Assembly (NCBI GenBank): GCA_007135795.1
Contig: SLIE01000038.1
Span: forward strand, 1 to 9,462
DNA: 9,462 bases
DNA from: Desulfobacterales bacterium
GTDB lineage: Bacteria > Desulfobacterota > Desulfobacteria > Desulfobacterales > Desulfosalsimonadaceae
Direction of reading: 5' to 3'
The notes beneath the pieces were generated by a model, which saw nothing but the letters and a program-made list of their open reading frames with translations, did not search any database and was not told the origin of the DNA. A program made the translations under genes and the position numbers. This document shows, in pieces, positions 1,197-9,462 of this stretch (position 1 is the first letter of the stretch; each line of letters opens with the position of its first letter).

Positions 1197-3032
1197 TCAG
1201 TATCTTGTGCCGGCGTTCGCCGCATCTTCAAATTTTTTGAGCTGCTGCCTGTAATAATCCCTGTTTTCGCTTGCGAGGAGGTATGCTTCTTTCCCGGCCT
1301 CGACCGCTTTTTCGTACTTGCCGTTCACGTAGTAGCTTTCGGCCAGGGTGTCAAGAATATAGGCTTGTCGTGACTGTTCAGCAGCTCTGCGGGCCAGCTC
1401 AAGGGACTTTTCCGGATTGAAAAAACGGGATTCATCGGTCGTGGCGTACACCCAGGCCAGGTTGTTCAGTGCCCTGGCGTTTTCGGGATCGAGAGAAATG
1501 GTTCTCCGGTAAGATTCGATGGCCCTGCCTATATCCCCCGTGCTTTGATACATGTCCGCCAGCATCAGATGCAGTTCGGCGTTTTCCGGTTCTGTTTCCA
1601 GTTGCTGTCTTACAAGGCGCTCCACAAGATTCGTGGAAATCATTTCCCCGGCGCCCCCGGCATGGAGGTTGTACCCGCCCCAACCGATCATTATGATAAC
1701 AGTTGCATAGACCAGAACACTCAATTTAATCTTGCGGTTCTGGCTGTCGATCCATTTTCGGTTGGTTTCGCATTTCTTGAGGTAATTGATTCGTTCGGTA
1801 ATCGAGAAGTGGTGCCAGTTGGGCCGGTCAGGCGATTGCCCGCTGGAAGCGGCGATTTTGTTAAATGTCGCGATAAGTGGTTGAGCCGAATCCATGAGCT
1901 GGTAAACAAAGGTATCTGCCTGCCGTTCAAAATTGCGCATGAAATAACCGAATACAAACCTGAAGTAAAACAGGAAGATCAGTATCATGGTAAATGAGAA
2001 CATGATGGGGACCAGGGTGGACCCACCATTCCCCCCTGCACCGAACCACCCGAAGGAAACGTTCATGTATATGATCAGCCAGATGATAAGATCCAGGGTG
2101 GAAAACGCGATAACCAGGTACCCCACGAAAAAAAACAGATAAAACAGCAGGTGTTTCTGCTTCACATGACCGATTTCATGAGCGATTACCGCATCGATCT
2201 CTTCCGGATTCAGGTACGCAAGCAGCCCCGGGGTAACAAGAATATACCGAAAGCGTCTTGCCAGCCCCATAACCCCCGCGGTTATCATTTTCCCGCCGAA
2301 CATCGGCCACAGCAGGATATCCTGGTACTTTACCCCGGCCCTTTGGCACATTTTTTCTATGCGAAATCGTTCATGCCCGTCTTCCAGTGGCTTGCATCCC
2401 CAGAATCGCTGTATGAGCCAGGGACCGATAATGGCGATGACAAATAGAAAAATCAGGAAATAGATGATCTGCCCCCCCGTTGACATCAGGAACTGCTGCG
2501 GGGCTTCAAAGGGGAGGGCGGTAATGAAATCCATAATGACTGACAGGAAAAACCAGGGCAGAAGAACGGGTACGGAAAACGAGATATTTGAAAAAACGTA
2601 ATTCCAGCGGGATGCGCCGGTGTTGTTGATCCTTTCATAAAGGTCGTAAGCGGATGCCCAGACAATCCCCAGGTAAAGCAGGAAGAGACAAAGGAAAAAC
2701 ACCGCCTCCAGGGTGGGGAAAATCTGGAAAATGGTTATATTCCTTAGATAAGCGCCAAGGTTGATGACATAGATGATGAATGCAAAAGCCGCCAGTGACA
2801 GGATCGAAAAGTGTGTCAGCAGGCTGTAAAACCGTTCTTCCACGCCGCTGACCCCGGCTTCGTACTTTACTTGCAGTTTGTTGAACAATAACCGGGCAAG
2901 CGATGCGAATCCAACCGTCAGGCTCATCAGCATCAGCAGTGCATGGAAAAAAGGTGTTTCGGGCTGGGCCGGCGGCTGGTACGTGGTATAAATCAGCAGT
3001 GCGATAATAAAATATATAAAATTTCCGAACAT
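1197..3032 (-). CDS. M48 family membrane metalloprotease with C-terminal TPR repeats
   Basis: An integral membrane zinc peptidase related to HtpX/Ste24 with an added helical repeat tail. From the chosen start the protein is 611 residues. About five hydrophobic helices occupy the first 210 residues. The zinc motif HEIGH lies at 285-289 (H285, E286, H289), followed by two long hydrophobic segments. ERQAD at about 369-373 supplies the likely third ligand. After another TM segment near 437-453, residues about 473-590 form TPR-type helix pairs, for example LHLMLADMYQSTGDIGRAIESYRRTISLDPENA. Family knowledge suggests membrane protein quality control; the TPRs probably recruit a partner. The ATG at 3032-3030 was preferred because AAGG (3038-3041) lies 5 bases upstream and a membrane segment begins at once. 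An in-frame ATG at 3068-3066 would add 12 residues but has only a weak Shine-Dalgarno. It is the last gene of the minus-strand cluster. Confidence 0.9.
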   Translation of the reverse strand: MFGNFIYFIIALLIYTTYQPPAQPETPFFHALLMLMSLTVGFASLARLLFNKLQVKYEAGVSGVEERFYSLLTHFSILSLAAFAFIIYVINLGAYLRNITIFQIFPTLEAVFFLCLFLLYLGIVWASAYDLYERINNTGASRWNYVFSNISFSVPVLLPWFFLSVIMDFITALPFEAPQQFLMSTGGQIIYFLIFLFVIAIIGPWLIQRFWGCKPLEDGHERFRIEKMCQRAGVKYQDILLWPMFGGKMITAGVMGLARRFRYILVTPGLLAYLNPEEIDAVIAHEIGHVKQKHLLFYLFFFVGYLVIAFSTLDLIIWLIIYMNVSFGWFGAGGNGGSTLVPIMFSFTMILIFLFYFRFVFGYFMRNFERQADTFVYQLMDSAQPLIATFNKIAASSGQSPDRPNWHHFSITERINYLKKCETNRKWIDSQNRKIKLSVLVYATVIIMIGWGGYNLHAGGAGEMISTNLVERLVRQQLETEPENAELHLMLADMYQSTGDIGRAIESYRRTISLDPENARALNNLAWVYATTDESRFFNPEKSLELARRAAEQSRQAYILDTLAESYYVNGKYEKAVEAGKEAYLLASENRDYYRQQLKKFEDAANAGTRY

Positions 3033-3089
3033 ATGTGCCTTATAAAGTGTTAGCCCGGCAGATACCATGAGGCCGGTTTCCCGGGCATT

Positions 3090-4354: not shown

Positions 4355-4963
4355 TCATTTTTGCCCCAGGCGGTTTATGGCATTAACCGAGACAAGGTGA
4401 TCGAGCACTTCGGCAAGCGGCAATCCCACCACGTTGGTGTATGACCCGTTGATCCGTTTGACCATGAACGCCCCGATACCCTGGATGGCATAAGCGCCCG
4501 CCTTGTCATAAGGTTCCGGTTTTTTAATGTACCAGTCGATTTCCGGTTCCCGAAGCGTCTTGAACGTTACTTCTGAAATTACCACGTCCGTAAACCGGTG
4601 TCCAACAGTTTGGCGGAAAATGCTGTATCCTGTCATCACCCGGTGGGTCCGTCCGCTTAAAGATGTCAGCATCTCTTTGGCGTGTGATGGTGATGATGGT
4701 TTGTTTAATATGATATCATCGATGGTGACAATGGAATCCGCCCCGATTACCCAGTGGTCCGGATACCGGCGGGATACGGCGGTTGCCTTTGCGATGGAAA
4801 GAATTTGCGCATAATCTTCCGGCTGAGCGGCGGATATGGCCTCTTCATCCACATGGCTCTCCACGATCTCAAAATCGATACCAAGCTGTTCCAGCATCCT
4901 TATCCGCCGGGGGGATTTTGACGCCAGAATGATCTTGGTGGTTTTTTTAATATTATTTGGCAT
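4355..4963 (-). CDS. maf: Maf family nucleoside triphosphate pyrophosphatase
   Basis: A 202-residue cytoplasmic house-cleaning pyrophosphatase that hydrolyses non-canonical or excess NTPs (dTTP/UTP or 7-methyl-GTP, depending on subfamily) to the NMP and PPi. Conserved signatures are ILASKSPRR (12-20) at the substrate loop, GADSIV (74-79) with catalytic-type D76, NKP (87-89), LSGRTHRV (102-109), EPYDKAGAYAIQG (150-162) and NGSYTNVVGLPL (172-183). Length is typical. I cannot assign the dTTP/UTP versus m7GTP subfamily by eye. The ATG has only a weak GAAG upstream. Translation ends at two tandem TGA codons (4357-4355 and 4354-4352). It appears to be the first gene of a maf-yggS-queH-M48 minus-strand unit and its promoter should lie in 4964-5160. 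Confidence 0.95.
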   Translation of the reverse strand: MPNNIKKTTKIILASKSPRRIRMLEQLGIDFEIVESHVDEEAISAAQPEDYAQILSIAKATAVSRRYPDHWVIGADSIVTIDDIILNKPSSPSHAKEMLTSLSGRTHRVMTGYSIFRQTVGHRFTDVVISEVTFKTLREPEIDWYIKKPEPYDKAGAYAIQGIGAFMVKRINGSYTNVVGLPLAEVLDHLVSVNAINRLGQK

Positions 4964-5015
4964 GGCGCTTCATTAACAGATTCGTAAGTGTTTTACAAGT
5001 CACCCTCTTTTTCGC

Positions 5016-5063
5016 ATTTCTGATTGCATTGAAATGGCAGTTTTAGTATTGCATAGCGTAGAT
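5016..5063 (+). repeat. 48-nt direct repeat, copy 1 (upstream of the three-gene cassette)
   Basis: This stretch aligns without gaps to 8480-8527 with 38 of 48 bases identical by hand count. The best-conserved blocks are ATTTCT, TTGCA, CAGTTT, AGTAT and CATAGCGTA. Similarity ends sharply at both sides. Both copies are in the same orientation and in non-coding DNA. The block contains a promoter-like pair of hexamers at 17-base spacing, so it may be a shared promoter/regulatory module. It could instead be a remnant repeat flanking the cassette. Confidence 0.65.
5024..5052 (+). promoter_or_regulatory. Candidate sigma-70-type promoter for the three-gene cassette
   Basis: TTGCAT (5024-5029), a 17-base spacer, then TATTGC (5047-5052). 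The -10 box is weak, but the same layout occurs in the second repeat copy before the tRNA gene. Initiation near 5059 would give a leader of about 100 bases and place the inverted repeat at 5062-5073 just downstream of the start, a position suited to an operator. A competing candidate is TTGATC (5080-5085) with TATAAA (5101-5106). Confidence 0.3.
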
Positions 5064-5073
5064 CACGGGTGAT
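5062..5073. promoter_or_regulatory. Operator-like inverted repeat ATCAC-GG-GTGAT
   Basis: Perfect 5-bp arms separated by two G's, immediately after the conserved repeat copy 1 and about 90 bases before the lipoprotein start. Position and symmetry fit a dimeric regulator site, but no regulator is encoded nearby. A 12-base inverted repeat can also arise by chance. Confidence 0.25.
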
Positions 5074-5160
5074 AAAAAGTTGATCTGATTTATGACGAAT
5101 TATAAATGACAAAATACGCTTCTTCTAACCGACATCAATCCAAAGAAATTAATTCCTGCC

Positions 5161-5982
5161 ATGACACGTAATTTCTTGTTAAAAGTTTTCGTTCTTCTTC
5201 TGTTGATTCCTTTCATTCATGCATGTACTTCGGGGAGAATTCTTGTACGGGAGGACGACCTCTTGCATGTAAAAGCCCGACTTGAGGCCGGTGAAAAACG
5301 ACAGGAAGCCCAGTTGGAAAAAATGGACCGTCTGCTCGAGGGGTATGAAATTCAATATCAATTGATGCTTCAAAATGTCGTGGAAAGAATACGTTATTTC
5401 GAATTCCTGGAAGATATTATAAGGGATGCCCATGCGGATTCAAGTCATAAACTGACAAGACTGTCATCTCTGTTGGTTTCTGAACCAGCAAGCCATCTGT
5501 CAATGGAACCCGGATTCAATACAATCAGCACGGAGAAACTACTGGTGGGAGAAATCGAAAAAGTGCGCCTGACTCCTCCGGGCCGTGTTTTTCATGCCCG
5601 AATAGATACCGGGGCCACCACATCGTCACTCGATGCGCGTGATATTGAATCGTTCGAAAGAGACGGATGTGCATGGGTTCGTTTCAAAGTGGCGGAGCAT
5701 GAAGATGAATCCCTCCATGAGCTGGAAAAACCAGTTGAACGGTATGTCAGGGTTCTCCAGTCTTCCAGTGAAAAGGCGGATCGGCGTCCGGTGATTAAAC
5801 TGCAATTTCAATTGGGTCCGATTGAAATGATCGATGAATTCACACTGGTCGATCGAAAACATCTGGATTATCAGGTATTGATCGGGCGCAATATTTTAAA
5901 AGACCTCATGGTCGTGGACGTGGCACAGCAATTTGTCGTGCCGTTGCCGGAATCAGAAAGAGACGAGAACGACACCCCATGA
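5161..5982 (+). CDS. Lipoprotein with retropepsin-like aspartic protease domain (RimB/'Zn_protease' family)
   Basis: 273 residues. An N-terminal hydrophobic segment (5-20) ends in a lipobox-like I-H-A-C with C22 as the lipidated cysteine; Thr at +2 suggests outer-membrane sorting, so the protein should face the periplasm. Residues about 32-100 are charged and heptad-like, probably a coiled-coil stalk. The C-terminal domain (about 125-262) is the family often labelled 'ATP-dependent zinc protease' but really retropepsin-like. It has IDTGATTSSLDA (148-159) with catalytic D149, and LIGRNILKDLMVVD (240-253) as the second conserved strand. One catalytic Asp per chain means it should work as a dimer. 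RimB relatives act together with RimK-type ligases, matching the ligase two genes downstream. The Shine-Dalgarno is weak, but the signal sequence supports this ATG. The stop overlaps the next start (ATGA). The substrate is unknown. Confidence 0.85.
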   Translation: MTRNFLLKVFVLLLLIPFIHACTSGRILVREDDLLHVKARLEAGEKRQEAQLEKMDRLLEGYEIQYQLMLQNVVERIRYFEFLEDIIRDAHADSSHKLTRLSSLLVSEPASHLSMEPGFNTISTEKLLVGEIEKVRLTPPGRVFHARIDTGATTSSLDARDIESFERDGCAWVRFKVAEHEDESLHELEKPVERYVRVLQSSSEKADRRPVIKLQFQLGPIEMIDEFTLVDRKHLDYQVLIGRNILKDLMVVDVAQQFVVPLPESERDENDTP

Positions 5983-7493
5983 ATCCCAGGCCCACCTTTT
6001 ATTTATTGATTGTTACATTGATCCTTACAGGTTTGACCTTGGCATTCCTCAGGCATATGTATCTGGATATTCCGTTGTGGCCGGGTGATAAAAAGCCTGT
6101 TTGGCTCATTGAAGCCAGGATTGATTTTATTCCCAACGGCGAACCTGTGCTGGTGAGTCTGGATCTACCCAGTAACCCGCCCGGGTTTATTCAGGTTTCC
6201 GAGCAAGCCGCATCCCCCGGGTATGGTTTCTCAATTGTTGAAGAAGCTGGAAATCGGCGGGCGGAATGGTCCAGGCGTAATGCGGAAGGCGTACAGACTT
6301 TATATTATAAAATACAGATGATTCCGGGCAGAGCCAGTGACCATGATGACCTTGCAGGAGATGCCCCCGGCCCCCGCTCCGTTTTTTGGAGTGAACCCCA
6401 ATCCACGGCAGCAATCCAATTGCTTTCCCAGGCACATGACAGATCGAGTACCCCGACCAGTTTTGCCCGTGAGTTGATAAGGCAGGTCAGTGCCTTGGAA
6501 CCGGATCAGAATGCCGCACTGCTTTTGGCCGAATACCCTCTGCCGACCTTGCTCATGCGGCTTCTCAACCATGCAGGTATTCCCGCACGGGTATCCATGG
6601 GGTTGGAACTGGAAGATGCCCGCAGGTATCAGTCGTTAAAACCATTTTTAGAAATTTATGATAAAGATCAATGGATTACTGTAGATCCGAGGACCGGTGC
6701 CCATGGGTTGCCCGAGAACCTGCTTTTGTGGCACAGGGGAGGGCAATCCTTGCTGGATGTTATGGGTGGGAGTCGTTCAGTTGTTCGCTTTTCCATGATC
6801 CGCCAGATCCAGCCAGCGATGGACCTGGCCCGGTTGCAGTTCAATGAAAGGGGACTTTCCCGGCTGAGCCTTTACCATCTTCCCATCGAAGAACAGAGCA
6901 TGTTCAAGCTGTTGCTCCTTCTTCCGGTTGGTGCCCTGGTCGTCACGTTCATGCGAATCATCATCGGCGTTCGCACTTCTGGTACATTTATGCCGATTCT
7001 CATCGCCCTTGCATTTATGCAGACTTCCCTGGTTCCGGGGTTGACCGCTTTTATTGCAATCGTTTCCATGGGGTTGATGCTGCGCGGCTACCTGTCTCGG
7101 TTAAATCTGCTTTTGGTAGCGAGGATATCGACTCTGATCGTGCTGGTGATATTTCTTACTTCCGCGATCAGTGTGTTGGGTCATGAATTGGGGTTGAATG
7201 TCGGTTTGACCATAACATTTTTTCCCATGGTCATTATTGCATGGACGATAGAGCGGATGAGCATCCTGTGGGAAGAGGACGGGAGTCGCGAAGTTATGGT
7301 GCAGGGGCTTGGAAGTCTTCTTGTCGCCATTGCAGCTTATGCCTGCATGCGGATAGGGGTTGTCGGGCACATAACCTTCAACTTCCCGGAAATTCACCTG
7401 GTGCTCCTGGCATTGATTCTCATGATGGGACAGTACACGGGTTATAAATTAACCGAACTCAAGCGGTTTTCGGTAATGATGAGGGACGACTGA
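5979..7493 (+). CDS. UUP1-type membrane protein: inactive transglutaminase-like domain plus 7 TM helices
   Basis: 504 residues. One TM anchor (about 7-25) is followed by a large extracytoplasmic part (30-305). Seven hydrophobic helices then lie at about 309-329, 335-350, 352-370, 379-400, 405-424, 439-458 and 471-488, with a short basic tail. This is the layout of the 'inactive transglutaminase fused to 7TM' families. Residues 160-240 keep the transglutaminase fold landmarks (LLMRLLNHAGIPARVSMGLEL; FLEIYDKDQWITVDPRTG). There is no Cys in the whole soluble domain, and the His normally before the E-[VI]-[YW] strand is Leu, so catalysis is not expected. It probably binds a peptide or amidated ligand and passes it, or a signal, through the 7TM part. 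The start overlaps the lipoprotein stop by 4 bases; the ligase begins one base after its stop. The partners imply a shared substrate. Confidence 0.85.
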   Translation: MNPRPTFYLLIVTLILTGLTLAFLRHMYLDIPLWPGDKKPVWLIEARIDFIPNGEPVLVSLDLPSNPPGFIQVSEQAASPGYGFSIVEEAGNRRAEWSRRNAEGVQTLYYKIQMIPGRASDHDDLAGDAPGPRSVFWSEPQSTAAIQLLSQAHDRSSTPTSFARELIRQVSALEPDQNAALLLAEYPLPTLLMRLLNHAGIPARVSMGLELEDARRYQSLKPFLEIYDKDQWITVDPRTGAHGLPENLLLWHRGGQSLLDVMGGSRSVVRFSMIRQIQPAMDLARLQFNERGLSRLSLYHLPIEEQSMFKLLLLLPVGALVVTFMRIIIGVRTSGTFMPILIALAFMQTSLVPGLTAFIAIVSMGLMLRGYLSRLNLLLVARISTLIVLVIFLTSAISVLGHELGLNVGLTITFFPMVIIAWTIERMSILWEEDGSREVMVQGLGSLLVAIAAYACMRIGVVGHITFNFPEIHLVLLALILMMGQYTGYKLTELKRFSVMMRDD

Positions 7494-7494
7494 T

Positions 7495-8448
7495 ATGCGG
7501 CGTTTTTCACTCCCGCTTCACGGAAAGGGAATATTGGGGATGAATCGTCGCAACATATCCTATATCTTTCGCTATAATGATCGCGGTCGGTATCCACTTG
7601 TCGACGACAAGTTGAAAACCAAGTTGCTGGCTGAAAAATTCAATTTACCCACCCCGAAATTACTATCGGTTGTGCGTTATCAATACGAGATTGCTTCATT
7701 CCACAAAGCAATTGATGGGCTCGATGGGTTCGTGATCAAACCAGCGAAGGGTGCCGGAGGGAAGGGGATTCTCGTAATCGTGAATCGGGACGATGACAAG
7801 TTTGTCAAACCTTCAGGTAAAACCATCGGTATCCATGATGTAAACAGGCATTTGTCCAACATCCTGGCCGGGCTGTATTCCCTTGGCGGCACACCGGATG
7901 TGGCCGTGGTGGAAGATCTGATCAGGCCCGTGCCAATGTTTGAAAAACTTTCTTACGAAGGGGTTCCGGATATACGCATTATCATTTTTAAAGGATACCC
8001 GGTAATGGCAATGCTGAGATTGTCCACCCATGCATCCGATGGCAAGGCCAACCTGCACAAGGGGGCTGTGGGGGTAGGACTCGATATTGGCGGCGGACGA
8101 TGCTTGCATGCGGTACAGTATGCCCGCAGGGTAGCGCATCATCCGGATAGTGGCATCTCGCTGGACACGATTGTTATTCCGGATTGGGAAAAATTGCTCC
8201 TATTGGCTGCACGCAGCTATGAAATCACCAGGCTCGGTTATATCGGGGCGGACCTGGTTGTCGACAAAAACCGTGGCCCGTTGATGCTTGAATTGAATGC
8301 GAGGCCGGGACTTTCCATACAAGTGGCTAACGGCGCCGGTTTATTGCCGCGTTTGAGAAAAATCGAAGCGCTCGATCCGGATTTTATTATCGGTCCGGAA
8401 GAAAGGGTCGCTTTCTCCATGGAGGCATTTTCTGCAGACAGGCTTTGA
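7495..8448 (+). CDS. RimK-related alpha-L-glutamate ligase-like ATP-grasp protein
   Basis: 317 residues, cytoplasmic, no signal peptide. It matches the 'alpha-L-glutamate ligase-related' ATP-grasp family that typically sits next to an inactive-transglutaminase 7TM gene. KGILGMNRRNISYI and YPLVDDKLKTKLLA (33-46) form the family-specific N terminus. FVIKPAKGAGGKGI (79-92) is the nucleotide-binding lysine plus glycine loop. KANLHKGAVGVGLDI (184-198) follows, then GYIGADLVVD (248-257) and LMLELNARPG (263-272) with Mg-binding E266 and N268. All ATP-grasp essentials appear intact, so it should form amide bonds from an amino acid and a carboxylate through an acyl phosphate. The acceptor is unknown. 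The start codon lies one base after the membrane protein stop, with GAGGG at 7481-7485. An internal ATG at residue 16 is possible but would remove conserved sequence. Confidence 0.88.
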   Translation: MRRFSLPLHGKGILGMNRRNISYIFRYNDRGRYPLVDDKLKTKLLAEKFNLPTPKLLSVVRYQYEIASFHKAIDGLDGFVIKPAKGAGGKGILVIVNRDDDKFVKPSGKTIGIHDVNRHLSNILAGLYSLGGTPDVAVVEDLIRPVPMFEKLSYEGVPDIRIIIFKGYPVMAMLRLSTHASDGKANLHKGAVGVGLDIGGGRCLHAVQYARRVAHHPDSGISLDTIVIPDWEKLLLLAARSYEITRLGYIGADLVVDKNRGPLMLELNARPGLSIQVANGAGLLPRLRKIEALDPDFIIGPEERVAFSMEAFSADRL

Positions 8449-8462
8449 ATGGGTTGTGAAAG

Positions 8463-8476
8463 ATGTGTATACACAT
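8463..8476. promoter_or_regulatory. 14-bp perfect palindrome
   Basis: ATGTGTATACACAT is its own reverse complement, lying 14 bases after the ligase stop and just before repeat copy 2. It has no loop and no T run, so it is not a terminator. The TGTNTANACA-like core resembles operator half-sites used by GntR-type and similar dimeric regulators. It could control the tRNA promoter region. Assignment to any regulator is speculation. Confidence 0.35.
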
Positions 8477-8479
8477 TCT

Positions 8480-8527
8480 ATTTCTTCTTGCAATTAAAAG
8501 CCAGTTTCAGTATGACATAGCGTAAAT
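8480..8527 (+). repeat. 48-nt direct repeat, copy 2 (between the ligase and tRNA-Leu)
   Basis: Partner of 5016-5063: 38 of 48 positions are identical by hand alignment without gaps, including an identical CATAGCGTA (8515-8523). It ends 22 bases before the tRNA. The two copies bracket the three-gene cassette in direct orientation, about 3.46 kb apart. Confidence 0.65.
8488..8516 (+). promoter_or_regulatory. Candidate tRNA-Leu promoter within repeat copy 2
   Basis: TTGCAA (8488-8493), a 17-base spacer, then TATGAC (8511-8516). Initiation near 8523 would leave a leader of about 27 bases to be removed by RNase P. This is a better fit than TTGACA at 8534-8539, whose -10 box would fall inside the tRNA. 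Confidence 0.4.
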
Positions 8528-8549
8528 TTGCAGTTGACATCACATATGC

Positions 8550-8638
8550 GCCTGGGTGGCGGAATAGGTAGACGCAAGGGACTTAAAATCCCTCGGGGCA
8601 TTGTCCCTGTACGAGTTCGATTCTCGTCCCAGGCACCA
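8550..8638 (+). tRNA. tRNA-Leu (anticodon UAA)
   Basis: A complete cloverleaf with encoded CCA. The acceptor stem is GCCTGGG (8550-8556) with CCCAGGC (8628-8634), discriminator A8635 and CCA 8636-8638. The anticodon stem AGGGA/TCCCT (8577-8581, 8589-8593) holds loop CTTAAAA with anticodon TAA at 8584-8586, reading UUA and UUG. A long class II variable arm (about 8594-8610) is diagnostic of Leu/Ser/Tyr. The T arm is ACGAG-TTCGATT-CTCGT (8611-8627). Six T's follow CCA directly (8639-8644) and may help end the transcript. Confidence 0.97.
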
Positions 8639-8653
8639 TTTTTTGACTGCCGC

Positions 8654-8681
8654 TTGAAATCTTCAAGAAGGTGTATATAAT
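8654..8681 (+). promoter_or_regulatory. Sigma-70-type promoter for the UDP-sugar dehydrogenase gene, overlapped by an inverted repeat
   Basis: TTGAAA (8654-8659), a 16-base spacer and a perfect TATAAT (8676-8681), giving a predicted start near 8688 and a leader of about 100 bases before the ATG at 8789. The perfect inverted repeat CTTGAA-ATC-TTCAAG (8653-8667) lies over the -35 box, where a bound repressor would block polymerase. It lacks a following T run, so it is not a good terminator for the tRNA. Confidence 0.5.
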
Positions 8682-8788
8682 TGATATATCGTCTGAGGAT
8701 CCCCGGGAAACCTCCTGTTAGGAATCGTATTCGAACGTTCAATAAACTTTTCTTTTCATAATCAGTAATCCTACGCAGAGGTGTGCGC

Positions 8789-9462
8789 ATGAATGTCTGT
8801 ATCGTTGGAACGGGCTATGTGGGGCTGGTTTCGGCCGCTTGTCTGGCCGAAACCGGAAATCATGTATATTGCGTCGATATCAATGAAAATATTATAAACC
8901 GTCTGAAAAATGGTGAGATTCATATATACGAACCCGGACTTGAGACGCTTGTCCGCAGAAATGTGGAGGGCAAGCGTCTTTTTTTTACAACTTCGTTGCA
9001 GGAAGCCATTTCCGGTTCGATGTTCATTTTCAGTTGTGTGGGAACTCCCCGGAATCCGGATGGATCCTGTGATTTGTCGGCGGTTTTCCAGGTCGCGGGC
9101 CAGATCGGCCGCTACATGAATGATTACAAGATCGTGGTGAACAAATCAACCGTGCCCGTAGGTACGGCAGACAAGGTCCAGGCCATTATTGCAGAGCAAA
9201 TGAAACACCGCCAACTCGAGATTCCTTTTGATGTGGTGTCCAATCCCGAGTTTCTGAAAGAGGGGGATGCGGTTAATGACTTTATGAAACCGGATCGGAT
9301 CATTATCGGCACCGATAAGGAAGAATCGGCATCGCTTCTTGAGGATCTGTACGCACCATACGCCCGAAGCCGTGACAAACTGATCGTCATGGGGAGACGG
9401 AGTGCGGAGATGACCAAGTATGCCGCAAACTGCATGCTTGCCACCAAGATTTCCTTTATCAA
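8789..9462 (+). CDS. ugd: UDP-glucose/GDP-mannose dehydrogenase family protein, N-terminal half (runs off the window)
   Basis: 224 codons are visible with no stop. Full-length members have about 430-450 residues, so roughly half is present. The N terminus MNVCIVGTGYVGLVSAACLA is the Rossmann NAD-binding motif (GxGYVG at 7-12), with D30 at the end of the second strand favouring NAD. CVGTPRNPDGSCDLS (83-97) and NKSTVPVGT (118-126) are family motifs. VVSNPEFLKEGDAVNDFMKPDRIIIG (149-174) contains the substrate-loop Glu. The segment around K210-K220 (KYAANCMLATKIS) begins the central helix with a conserved lysine. The catalytic Cys lies beyond the window. UDP-glucose 6-dehydrogenase is most likely: it makes UDP-glucuronate for exopolysaccharide or LPS. 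A related UDP-sugar or GDP-mannose dehydrogenase is not excluded. GAGG (8778-8781) lies 7 bases before the ATG. Confidence 0.9.
   Translation, partial: MNVCIVGTGYVGLVSAACLAETGNHVYCVDINENIINRLKNGEIHIYEPGLETLVRRNVEGKRLFFTTSLQEAISGSMFIFSCVGTPRNPDGSCDLSAVFQVAGQIGRYMNDYKIVVNKSTVPVGTADKVQAIIAEQMKHRQLEIPFDVVSNPEFLKEGDAVNDFMKPDRIIIGTDKEESASLLEDLYAPYARSRDKLIVMGRRSAEMTKYAANCMLATKISFI

Follow-up and report, generated by a model that had tools for sequence, protein, structure and literature searches.

Introduction

The rlo operon (RloA-RloB-RloC) was named in Pseudomonas aeruginosa, where it bears on survival of osmotic stress, tolerance of wall drugs, biofilm and cell shape, and where mutants, protease structures and a polyglutamate-cleaving activity have been described (PMC12239564). 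According to that report, purified RloA cuts chains of 8 or 10 glutamates and not those of 6 or fewer; it also cuts glutamate tails at a protein C-terminus in vitro, and its residues R114 and R137 contact polyglutamate and are needed both in vitro and in vivo. At low salt, rloA1-3 mutants, in which three RloA proteases are gone, are rescued when rloB or rloC is lost; delta-rloB and delta-rloC single mutants are ampicillin-sensitive and have shape defects; a rimB deletion is reported to show no interaction with rloA mutants, and most RloABC organisms also carry RimBK (PMC12239564). The same operon, PA1766-PA1768, received transposon hits in a suppressor screen (PMC7314104). Of the related systems, RimK adds glutamate tails to ribosomal protein S6 and RimB removes them (PMC11957791), and in Shewanella vesiculosa loss of the 'inactive transglutaminase' hm2192 raises vesicle output (PMC12096838). 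Neither lipoprotein nor coiled, Desulf or PgsC occurs as a word in the main text of the rlo study, which raises poly-alpha-glutamate as a possibility without settling what RloB and RloC do (PMC12239564). Here we describe a relative of this operon, a cassette of retropepsin, dead-transglutaminase and ATP-grasp ligase genes, in a 9,462-nt Desulfobacterales contig (SLIE01000038.1), the whole of which we call the window, and we weigh what such a cassette might make.

Results

A divergent rlo operon in the window

The cassette occupies positions 5161-8448, with all genes on the + strand, and comprises three open reading frames (ORFs): 5161-5982, encoding a retropepsin of 273 amino acids (RloA); 5979-7493, encoding a dead-transglutaminase membrane protein of 504 (RloB); and 7495-8448, encoding an ATP-grasp ligase of 317 (RloC). 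The first two genes overlap by 4 bp (5979-5982) and a 1-bp gap (7494) precedes the ligase gene, just as an initial annotation of the window had claimed from the ORF coordinates; the three genes make up a single compact set of the RloABC type. In Pfam profile searches RloA matches PF05618 (131 bits, cut-off 27), RloB matches PF14400 and PF14402 (183 and 335 bits, cut-offs 25) and RloC matches PF14397 (294.5 bits, cut-off 31.4); RloC also passes TIGR02291, 'alpha-L-glutamate ligase-like', at 430.2 bits against a cut-off of 314.2. These scores and the gene packing bear out the annotation's family assignments, gene order and reading of the genes as a single unit, and the three families, adjacent and on one strand, give the locus the gene content of an rlo operon in the broad sense.

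The window proteins fall short of the models built for P. aeruginosa-type proteins (the NCBIfam NF052262-4, NF052267 set): RloB reaches 336.2 bits where 900 are required, and RloA scores 107.6, 93.7 and 80.1 bits against cut-offs of 210, 250 and 280. They also fall below the RimB model (RloA, 70.2 of 200 bits) and the RimK model TIGR00768 (RloC, 40.6 of 143.4 bits). Judged by sequence, the cassette is an rlo operon that has diverged from that of P. aeruginosa and carries the long form of RloA. Because it is a divergent relative of that operon, the system is not a wholly unknown one, and the annotation's description of it as uncharacterised has to be given up in view of the mutants, structures and activity reported for its homolog (PMC12239564); the accompanying statement that no product is firmly established still holds. 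Promoter and terminator scans of 4900-8800 gave counts near chance, with no promoter-like site in the gap at 4964-5160 ahead of the cassette.

Co-occurrence of the three families

Across 147 genomes of the class, PF14402 is found in 18, counting the window's own, and PF05618 in 22, at 26 places. The broad PF14397 family is common (79 genomes at E up to 1e-3, 36 above the cut-off), and ligases of the RloC type, set apart by scores above 280 bits from a next match at 183 bits, occur in 17. All 17 of these genomes also carry PF14402 (hypergeometric p 2.4e-21), so the pairing of RloC with RloB is not due to chance. RloA lies directly upstream of RloB in 18/18 class loci and RloC downstream in 17/18, the 18th being cut by a contig end. 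We then added 80 loci from named genomes; they were the best 80 of 575 relatives, a choice that biases the resulting sample of 98 toward the window's kin. A wider search counted 4,367 RloB relatives, with 120 of them among the matches listed. Within it RloB is present in 98 loci, RloA in 96, each time adjoining RloB as in the window, and RloC in 97; all three are present in 95, and the remaining three (L033, L087 and L100) all lie at contig ends. This neighborhood survey agrees with the annotation's expectation that the three families tend to adjoin. A 2009 amidoligase survey by Iyer and others may have anticipated this gene neighborhood.

The window genome, which is 82% complete, has a single PF05618 protein, namely RloA, and no TIGR00768 match above the cut-off (best 87.4 of 143.4 bits); no RimB/RimK pair was seen in that 82%. 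A single PF05618 match is likewise found in 15/18 RloB genomes of the class, which thus offer a one-protease version of the system, and two to seven are found in 9/10 named genomes with the long form of RloA, the tenth, Nitrosomonas oligotropha, having one. Because a secreted protease and a membrane partner are unsuited to a ribosomal target, these observations also make a role confined to S6, which the annotation had named as a condition that would count against it, unlikely. The S6 gene of the window genome (L191:620-1048, - strand) itself encodes a long acidic C-terminal tail ending in VEKE, which is no clue for or against S6 modification.

An intact ligase and a dead transglutaminase

The ATP-grasp domain of RloC (PF14397 residues 18-291, 7546..8367) retains its ATP and Mg ligand residues. 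Eight positions, K82, E140, D159, R161, D253, E266, N268 and R270, are each invariant in 97/97 sequences; from general knowledge of ATP-grasp enzymes, we take them to be the catalytic ones. RloC thus appears intact as a ligase, and the possibility that the annotation had reserved, an inactive enzyme, is not what the sequence suggests. By eye the protein has no export signal.

RloB, in contrast, has lost the transglutaminase nucleophile. It consists of an N-terminal transmembrane (TM) helix, an inactive transglutaminase domain that probably lies on the periplasmic side (residues 39-279, 6093..6815) and a C-terminal membrane domain. The nucleophile's place, set by helix and motif context, is taken by Asn178 in the window protein, and Cys is absent from columns 172-185 in 98/98 sequences. 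In Foldseek and VIA-align comparisons this domain gave matches.

RloA and its two forms

The retropepsin domain of RloA (PF05618 residues 129-260, 5545..5940), which has sequence matches to PDB entries 9g59, 9g58 and 2pma, keeps the residues of a polyglutamate-type protease. These are the catalytic Asp149 of a DTG motif (5605..5607), conserved in 95/96 sequences and equated by motif with P. aeruginosa D48; Arg209 (5785..5787; Arg in 95/96), equated with R114 by motif and by a 23-residue spacing to the next Arg that is the same as in P. aeruginosa; and Arg232 (5854..5856; Arg in 94/96), equated with R137 by motif and spacing.

Ahead of this domain, RloA occurs in two forms: 125-271 residues precede the catalytic Asp in 86/96 sequences (long) and 45-84 in 10/96 (short). 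In the window, a hydrophobic N-terminus judged by eye to be an export signal runs to Cys22 (5161..5226), and a spacer with helical or coiled-coil character, again by eye only, links the anchor to the protease domain (5227..5535); the short form is without it. A loose lipobox pattern is passed by 76/86 long and 0/10 short sequences. The window's own IHAC, with an atypical His at -2, fails this pattern, as does SSGC of the short-form locus L031, though both look similar by eye. On this point the annotation's lipid-anchored protease is less firm than it was put; we consider the window RloA to be long and likely lipid-anchored. The presence of the long, likely lipid-anchored form in 86/96 loci of a sample biased to the window's kin suggests that forms other than that of P. 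aeruginosa deserve study as well.

In a quick maximum-likelihood tree of RloB (Shimodaira-Hasegawa-like approximate likelihood ratio test support, midpoint root), the long/short label of RloA amounts to one change. The window groups with five rows (support 99), four from genomes of the same order or family and one from a Desulfobacterales metagenome-assembled genome (L087). This group is nested in a 63-row clade (support 100) that consists mostly of Gammaproteobacteria (Marinobacter, Halomonadaceae and others); same-order long forms L043-L045 lie elsewhere within the clade, and the ten short forms, also from the same order, fall outside it, several on long branches. Two genomes of this order encode proteins that are identical to one of a Desulfobacter sp. 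(G064) and 99% identical to one of Desulfobacula phenolica (G050), which makes Desulfobacterales the most likely order. One bacterial order thus holds two separate rlo lineages (L031-L047), one of them nested among Gammaproteobacteria, for which the simple reading is horizontal transfer in a direction that the tree leaves undecided. Against the P. aeruginosa RloB model, whose cut-off is 900, the short-form loci L032, L047 and L031 score 452, 419 and 327, and the long-form loci L124, L127, L116, L061 and L034, the window and L131 score 390, 354, 351, 350, 337, 336 and 324; none passes. Tandem retropepsins were also seen, in a 634-residue ORF with three PF05618 matches, one under the cut-off (G151:C7:80875-82380, in the Photobacterium aquae genome of L128), and in a 296-residue ORF with two (G152:C5:65236-66039, in the Shewanella corallii genome of L131).

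The membrane core of RloB compared with PgsC/CapC

The membrane core of RloB (residues 303-458, 6885..7352; PF14402) has a predicted helix order like that of PgsC/CapC, the PF14102 membrane subunit of poly-gamma-glutamate synthesis. We compared AlphaFold models, each built from its own alignment, by helix order and register. The PgsC model has helices at 2-20, 29-35, 40-63, 69-91, 107-118 and 120-145 (mean predicted local distance difference test score, pLDDT, 89); the RloB model has helices at 303-329 (split), 337-349, 351-373, 379-403, 414-434 and 436-458, followed by more (mean pLDDT 82, predicted template modeling score 0.66). For the first segment, at a 90% conservation threshold, the best of 177 ungapped shifts is the one that the helix order predicts, and it pairs RloB G330, G335 and P339 with PgsC G21, G26 and P30. 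In TM2, the shift that sets RloB Arg369 against PgsC R58 is one among several tied. Profile searches with a model of RloB used controls of 112 membrane proteins (40 cluster representatives of 83 flank controls, an earlier run having used the 83, plus 72 new) and 135 reversed sequences; here 11/11 second copies of tandem CapC proteins, all of one family, rank first (best E 0.0066).

Several results weigh against kinship. At an 80% conservation threshold the predicted first-segment shift ranks second, the TM3 shift (RloB Arg382 against PgsC R71) ranks behind one other, and the last segment, HP2/TM4, does not favor the predicted shift. Deep-profile hhalign comparisons of RloB (the partial rows L087 and L100 dropped) with PgsC or tandem CapC gave E values of 0.07-0.43, which are not significant, whereas positive controls inside the CapC family gave 1.8e-9, 6.7e-5 and 3.9e-4; for tandem copy 2, E went from 0.013 with 5 sequences to 0.18 with 120. 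The 120 PgsC proteins score no better against the RloB model than their reversals do (medians -1.3 and -1.1 bits, the latter including reversed tandem copies), and in the reverse search CapC models leave RloB within the control range. Among the folds listed, neither Foldseek nor VIA-align found a PDB match standing out for the RloB membrane part, nor a clear one for PgsC. A PF14102 search up to E 10, in which HMMER filters drop most weak matches, gave nothing for the window RloB, and its genome is without a match. When alignment columns were permuted within hydropathy classes, the observed score was reached with shallow profiles in 7/300 (tandem copy 2), 9/300 (copy 1) and 65/300 (PgsC) permutations at one set of gap costs and in 10, 29 and 18 of 300 at another; with deep profiles it was reached in 7 to 90 of 200 across nine pairings and in 0/200 for two CapC-family controls. 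The top deep-profile alignment places RloB P339 on the shared Pro in 5/9 pairings. Because the profile methods fall short of significance, we keep this kinship as a lead, suggested by the helix order and one register and standing at about even odds, and regard the export step of RloB as putative. Titles and abstract openings of the papers listed yielded nothing linking PgsC/CapC to transglutaminases, a search from 2021 on found no cryo-electron microscopy work on PgsC and poly-gamma-glutamate, and the RloA/B/C names led to one relevant paper.

The comparison also brought up other CapC-containing loci. A 1079-residue protein with two tandem PF14102 domains and a large Pfam-less part is encoded at L048:2693-5932 (also in L049-L052, with copies in L140-L150); in L048 it adjoins a CHASE2 protein and a Pfam-less 844-residue protein, and 1392 of the 7994 candidates scored are relatives at E up to 1e-3. 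The ligase of PgsBC(A)/CapBC systems is of the Mur type. In a genome of the window's order, a compact operon (L053:2933-5650) joins a weakly Mur-ligase-like, pgsB-like gene (PF08245, 22.3 of 24 bits) to pgsC and a Pfam-less third gene, a pgsBC-like system in a Gram-negative bacterium.

Flanking genes

Upstream of the cassette, on the - strand, lie maf, yggS, queH and a gene (1197-3068) whose product joins an M48 peptidase to TPR repeats and contains several hydrophobic stretches; beyond them is a metallo-beta-lactamase-fold gene on the + strand. Downstream come a tRNA-Leu and then a nucleotide-sugar dehydrogenase gene starting 340 bp on, preceded at 8654-8681 by a promoter-like site with 11/12 matches (TTGAAA, 16 nt, TATAAT), in a scan whose total counts are near chance. 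A BLAST search with the six flanking proteins against the 4,954 ORFs from the other loci, in which the RloB control was found, gave no match at E up to 1e-3, so the window's neighbors are not common to the other trios in the sample.

Discussion

We propose that a glutamate chain is made by RloC, exported or received by RloB and trimmed by RloA, an envelope polyglutamate cycle that we hold to be about equally likely to be right or wrong. The chain, presumably alpha-linked, would be built by RloC in the cytoplasm and taken across the inner membrane, or received there, by RloB, whose dead transglutaminase domain may hold it; cutting in the periplasm would fall to the likely lipid-anchored RloA; and the periplasmic polyanion might act in osmotic balance and wall shape. 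Such an order of making, moving and trimming fits because the cassette combines a cytoplasmic ligase with a membrane protein and a secreted protease of a polyglutamate-cutting kind. RloB and RloC would act upstream of the material that RloA removes, because their loss in P. aeruginosa rescues the loss of three RloA proteases. The annotation's suggestion that the seven-TM-helix protein moves a tag is plausible. A caution is that 'glutamate' in the RloC annotation is a name carried over from RimK, and the enzyme's product and substrate are predictions only.

The export step can be pictured more closely, if decidedly tentatively and with the balance on the doubtful side: RloB might be a conduit for polyglutamate of the PgsC/CapC type, with its dead transglutaminase sitting as a cap that grips the chain as it emerges, and Rlo might be an ATP-grasp-driven system for poly-alpha-glutamate export and trimming in the Gram-negative envelope. 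If this is true, the osmoregulated periplasmic glucans would have a peptide counterpart, with a ligase convergent with the Gram-positive poly-gamma-glutamate synthase. The conserved logic of the trio, an apparently intact ligase, a polyglutamate-type protease and possibly a PgsC-like core, predicts a glutamate polymer in the Gram-negative periplasm.

Making, moving and trimming a free chain is the most likely mechanism, and its main rival is the tailing of an envelope acceptor, a real possibility if an unlikely one. RloC and RloB would then put glutamate tails on a periplasmic or membrane protein, lipid II or another carrier, with RloB as receptor or scaffold and RloA as eraser, much as RimK and RimB act on S6 (PMC11957791). 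That RloA cuts C-terminal protein tails in vitro, and that the rloB and rloC single mutants are ampicillin-sensitive and misshapen (PMC12239564), is consistent with this. This reading still requires the tailed molecule to pass through the membrane, however, because by eye RloC lacks an export signal and the eraser sits outside, and no acceptor gene is evident beside the window cassette, whose six flanks are unmatched in other loci, genes common to those loci not having been searched for. It is improbable that RloC instead ligates another amino acid, or a substrate linked to a sugar, with the polyglutamate cutting of RloA a side activity that it shares with RimB. The family name of PF14397, 'sugar-transfer associated', the distance of RloC from RimK (TIGR00768, 40.6 against 143.4 bits) and the nucleotide-sugar dehydrogenase gene 340 bp downstream all point that way, but the sugar gene sits past a tRNA and does not recur in other loci, and the two arginines that in P. 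aeruginosa are essential for polyglutamate cutting and for function in vivo are kept in 95/96 and 94/96 RloA sequences.

Two further candidates were rejected. A classical PgsBCA-type synthase of a poly-gamma-glutamate capsule, very improbable despite the PgsC-like helix order of the RloB core, would call for a ligase like the weakly Mur-ligase-like gene of L053 rather than an ATP-grasp enzyme; PF14102 matches neither RloB nor its genome, and in the retropepsin family to which the trimming enzyme belongs, the members tested so far cut Glu joined by peptide bonds (PMC12239564, PMC11957791). That the cassette is a copy of RimBK modifying S6 can hardly be right: the protease and ATP-grasp families are held in common, but RloA has a signal peptide, RloB is a membrane partner, the RimB and TIGR00768 scores (70.2/200 and 40.6/143.4 bits) lie under their cut-offs, and in P. 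aeruginosa the reported rimB deletion did not interact with rloA mutants (PMC12239564).

Set beside the known systems, the window trio resembles RimB-RimK in pairing a retropepsin with an ATP-grasp glutamate ligase; unlike it, RimB-RimK has a ribosomal target and, in the relevant passages of its description, no membrane partner (PMC11957791), and the window scores lie far under the cut-offs. PgsBC(A)/CapBC likewise join a ligase to a polytopic membrane subunit, whose six predicted helices follow the order seen in RloB and show one common G..G...P register, but RloB bears a transglutaminase domain and two extra helices, and sequence kinship of the membrane parts is not significant. The hm2192 protein of S. 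vesiculosa, a dead transglutaminase with seven TM helices (PMC12096838), is likened to RloB by description only. The closest counterpart is the rlo operon of P. aeruginosa: although the window RloB and RloA fall under its curated cut-offs, RloA is long and likely a lipoprotein, and the window genome (82% complete) shows no RimBK pair, both operons have the same three families, a secreted retropepsin, a dead transglutaminase with seven TM helices and an ATP-grasp ligase, and the catalytic Asp and key arginines are kept.

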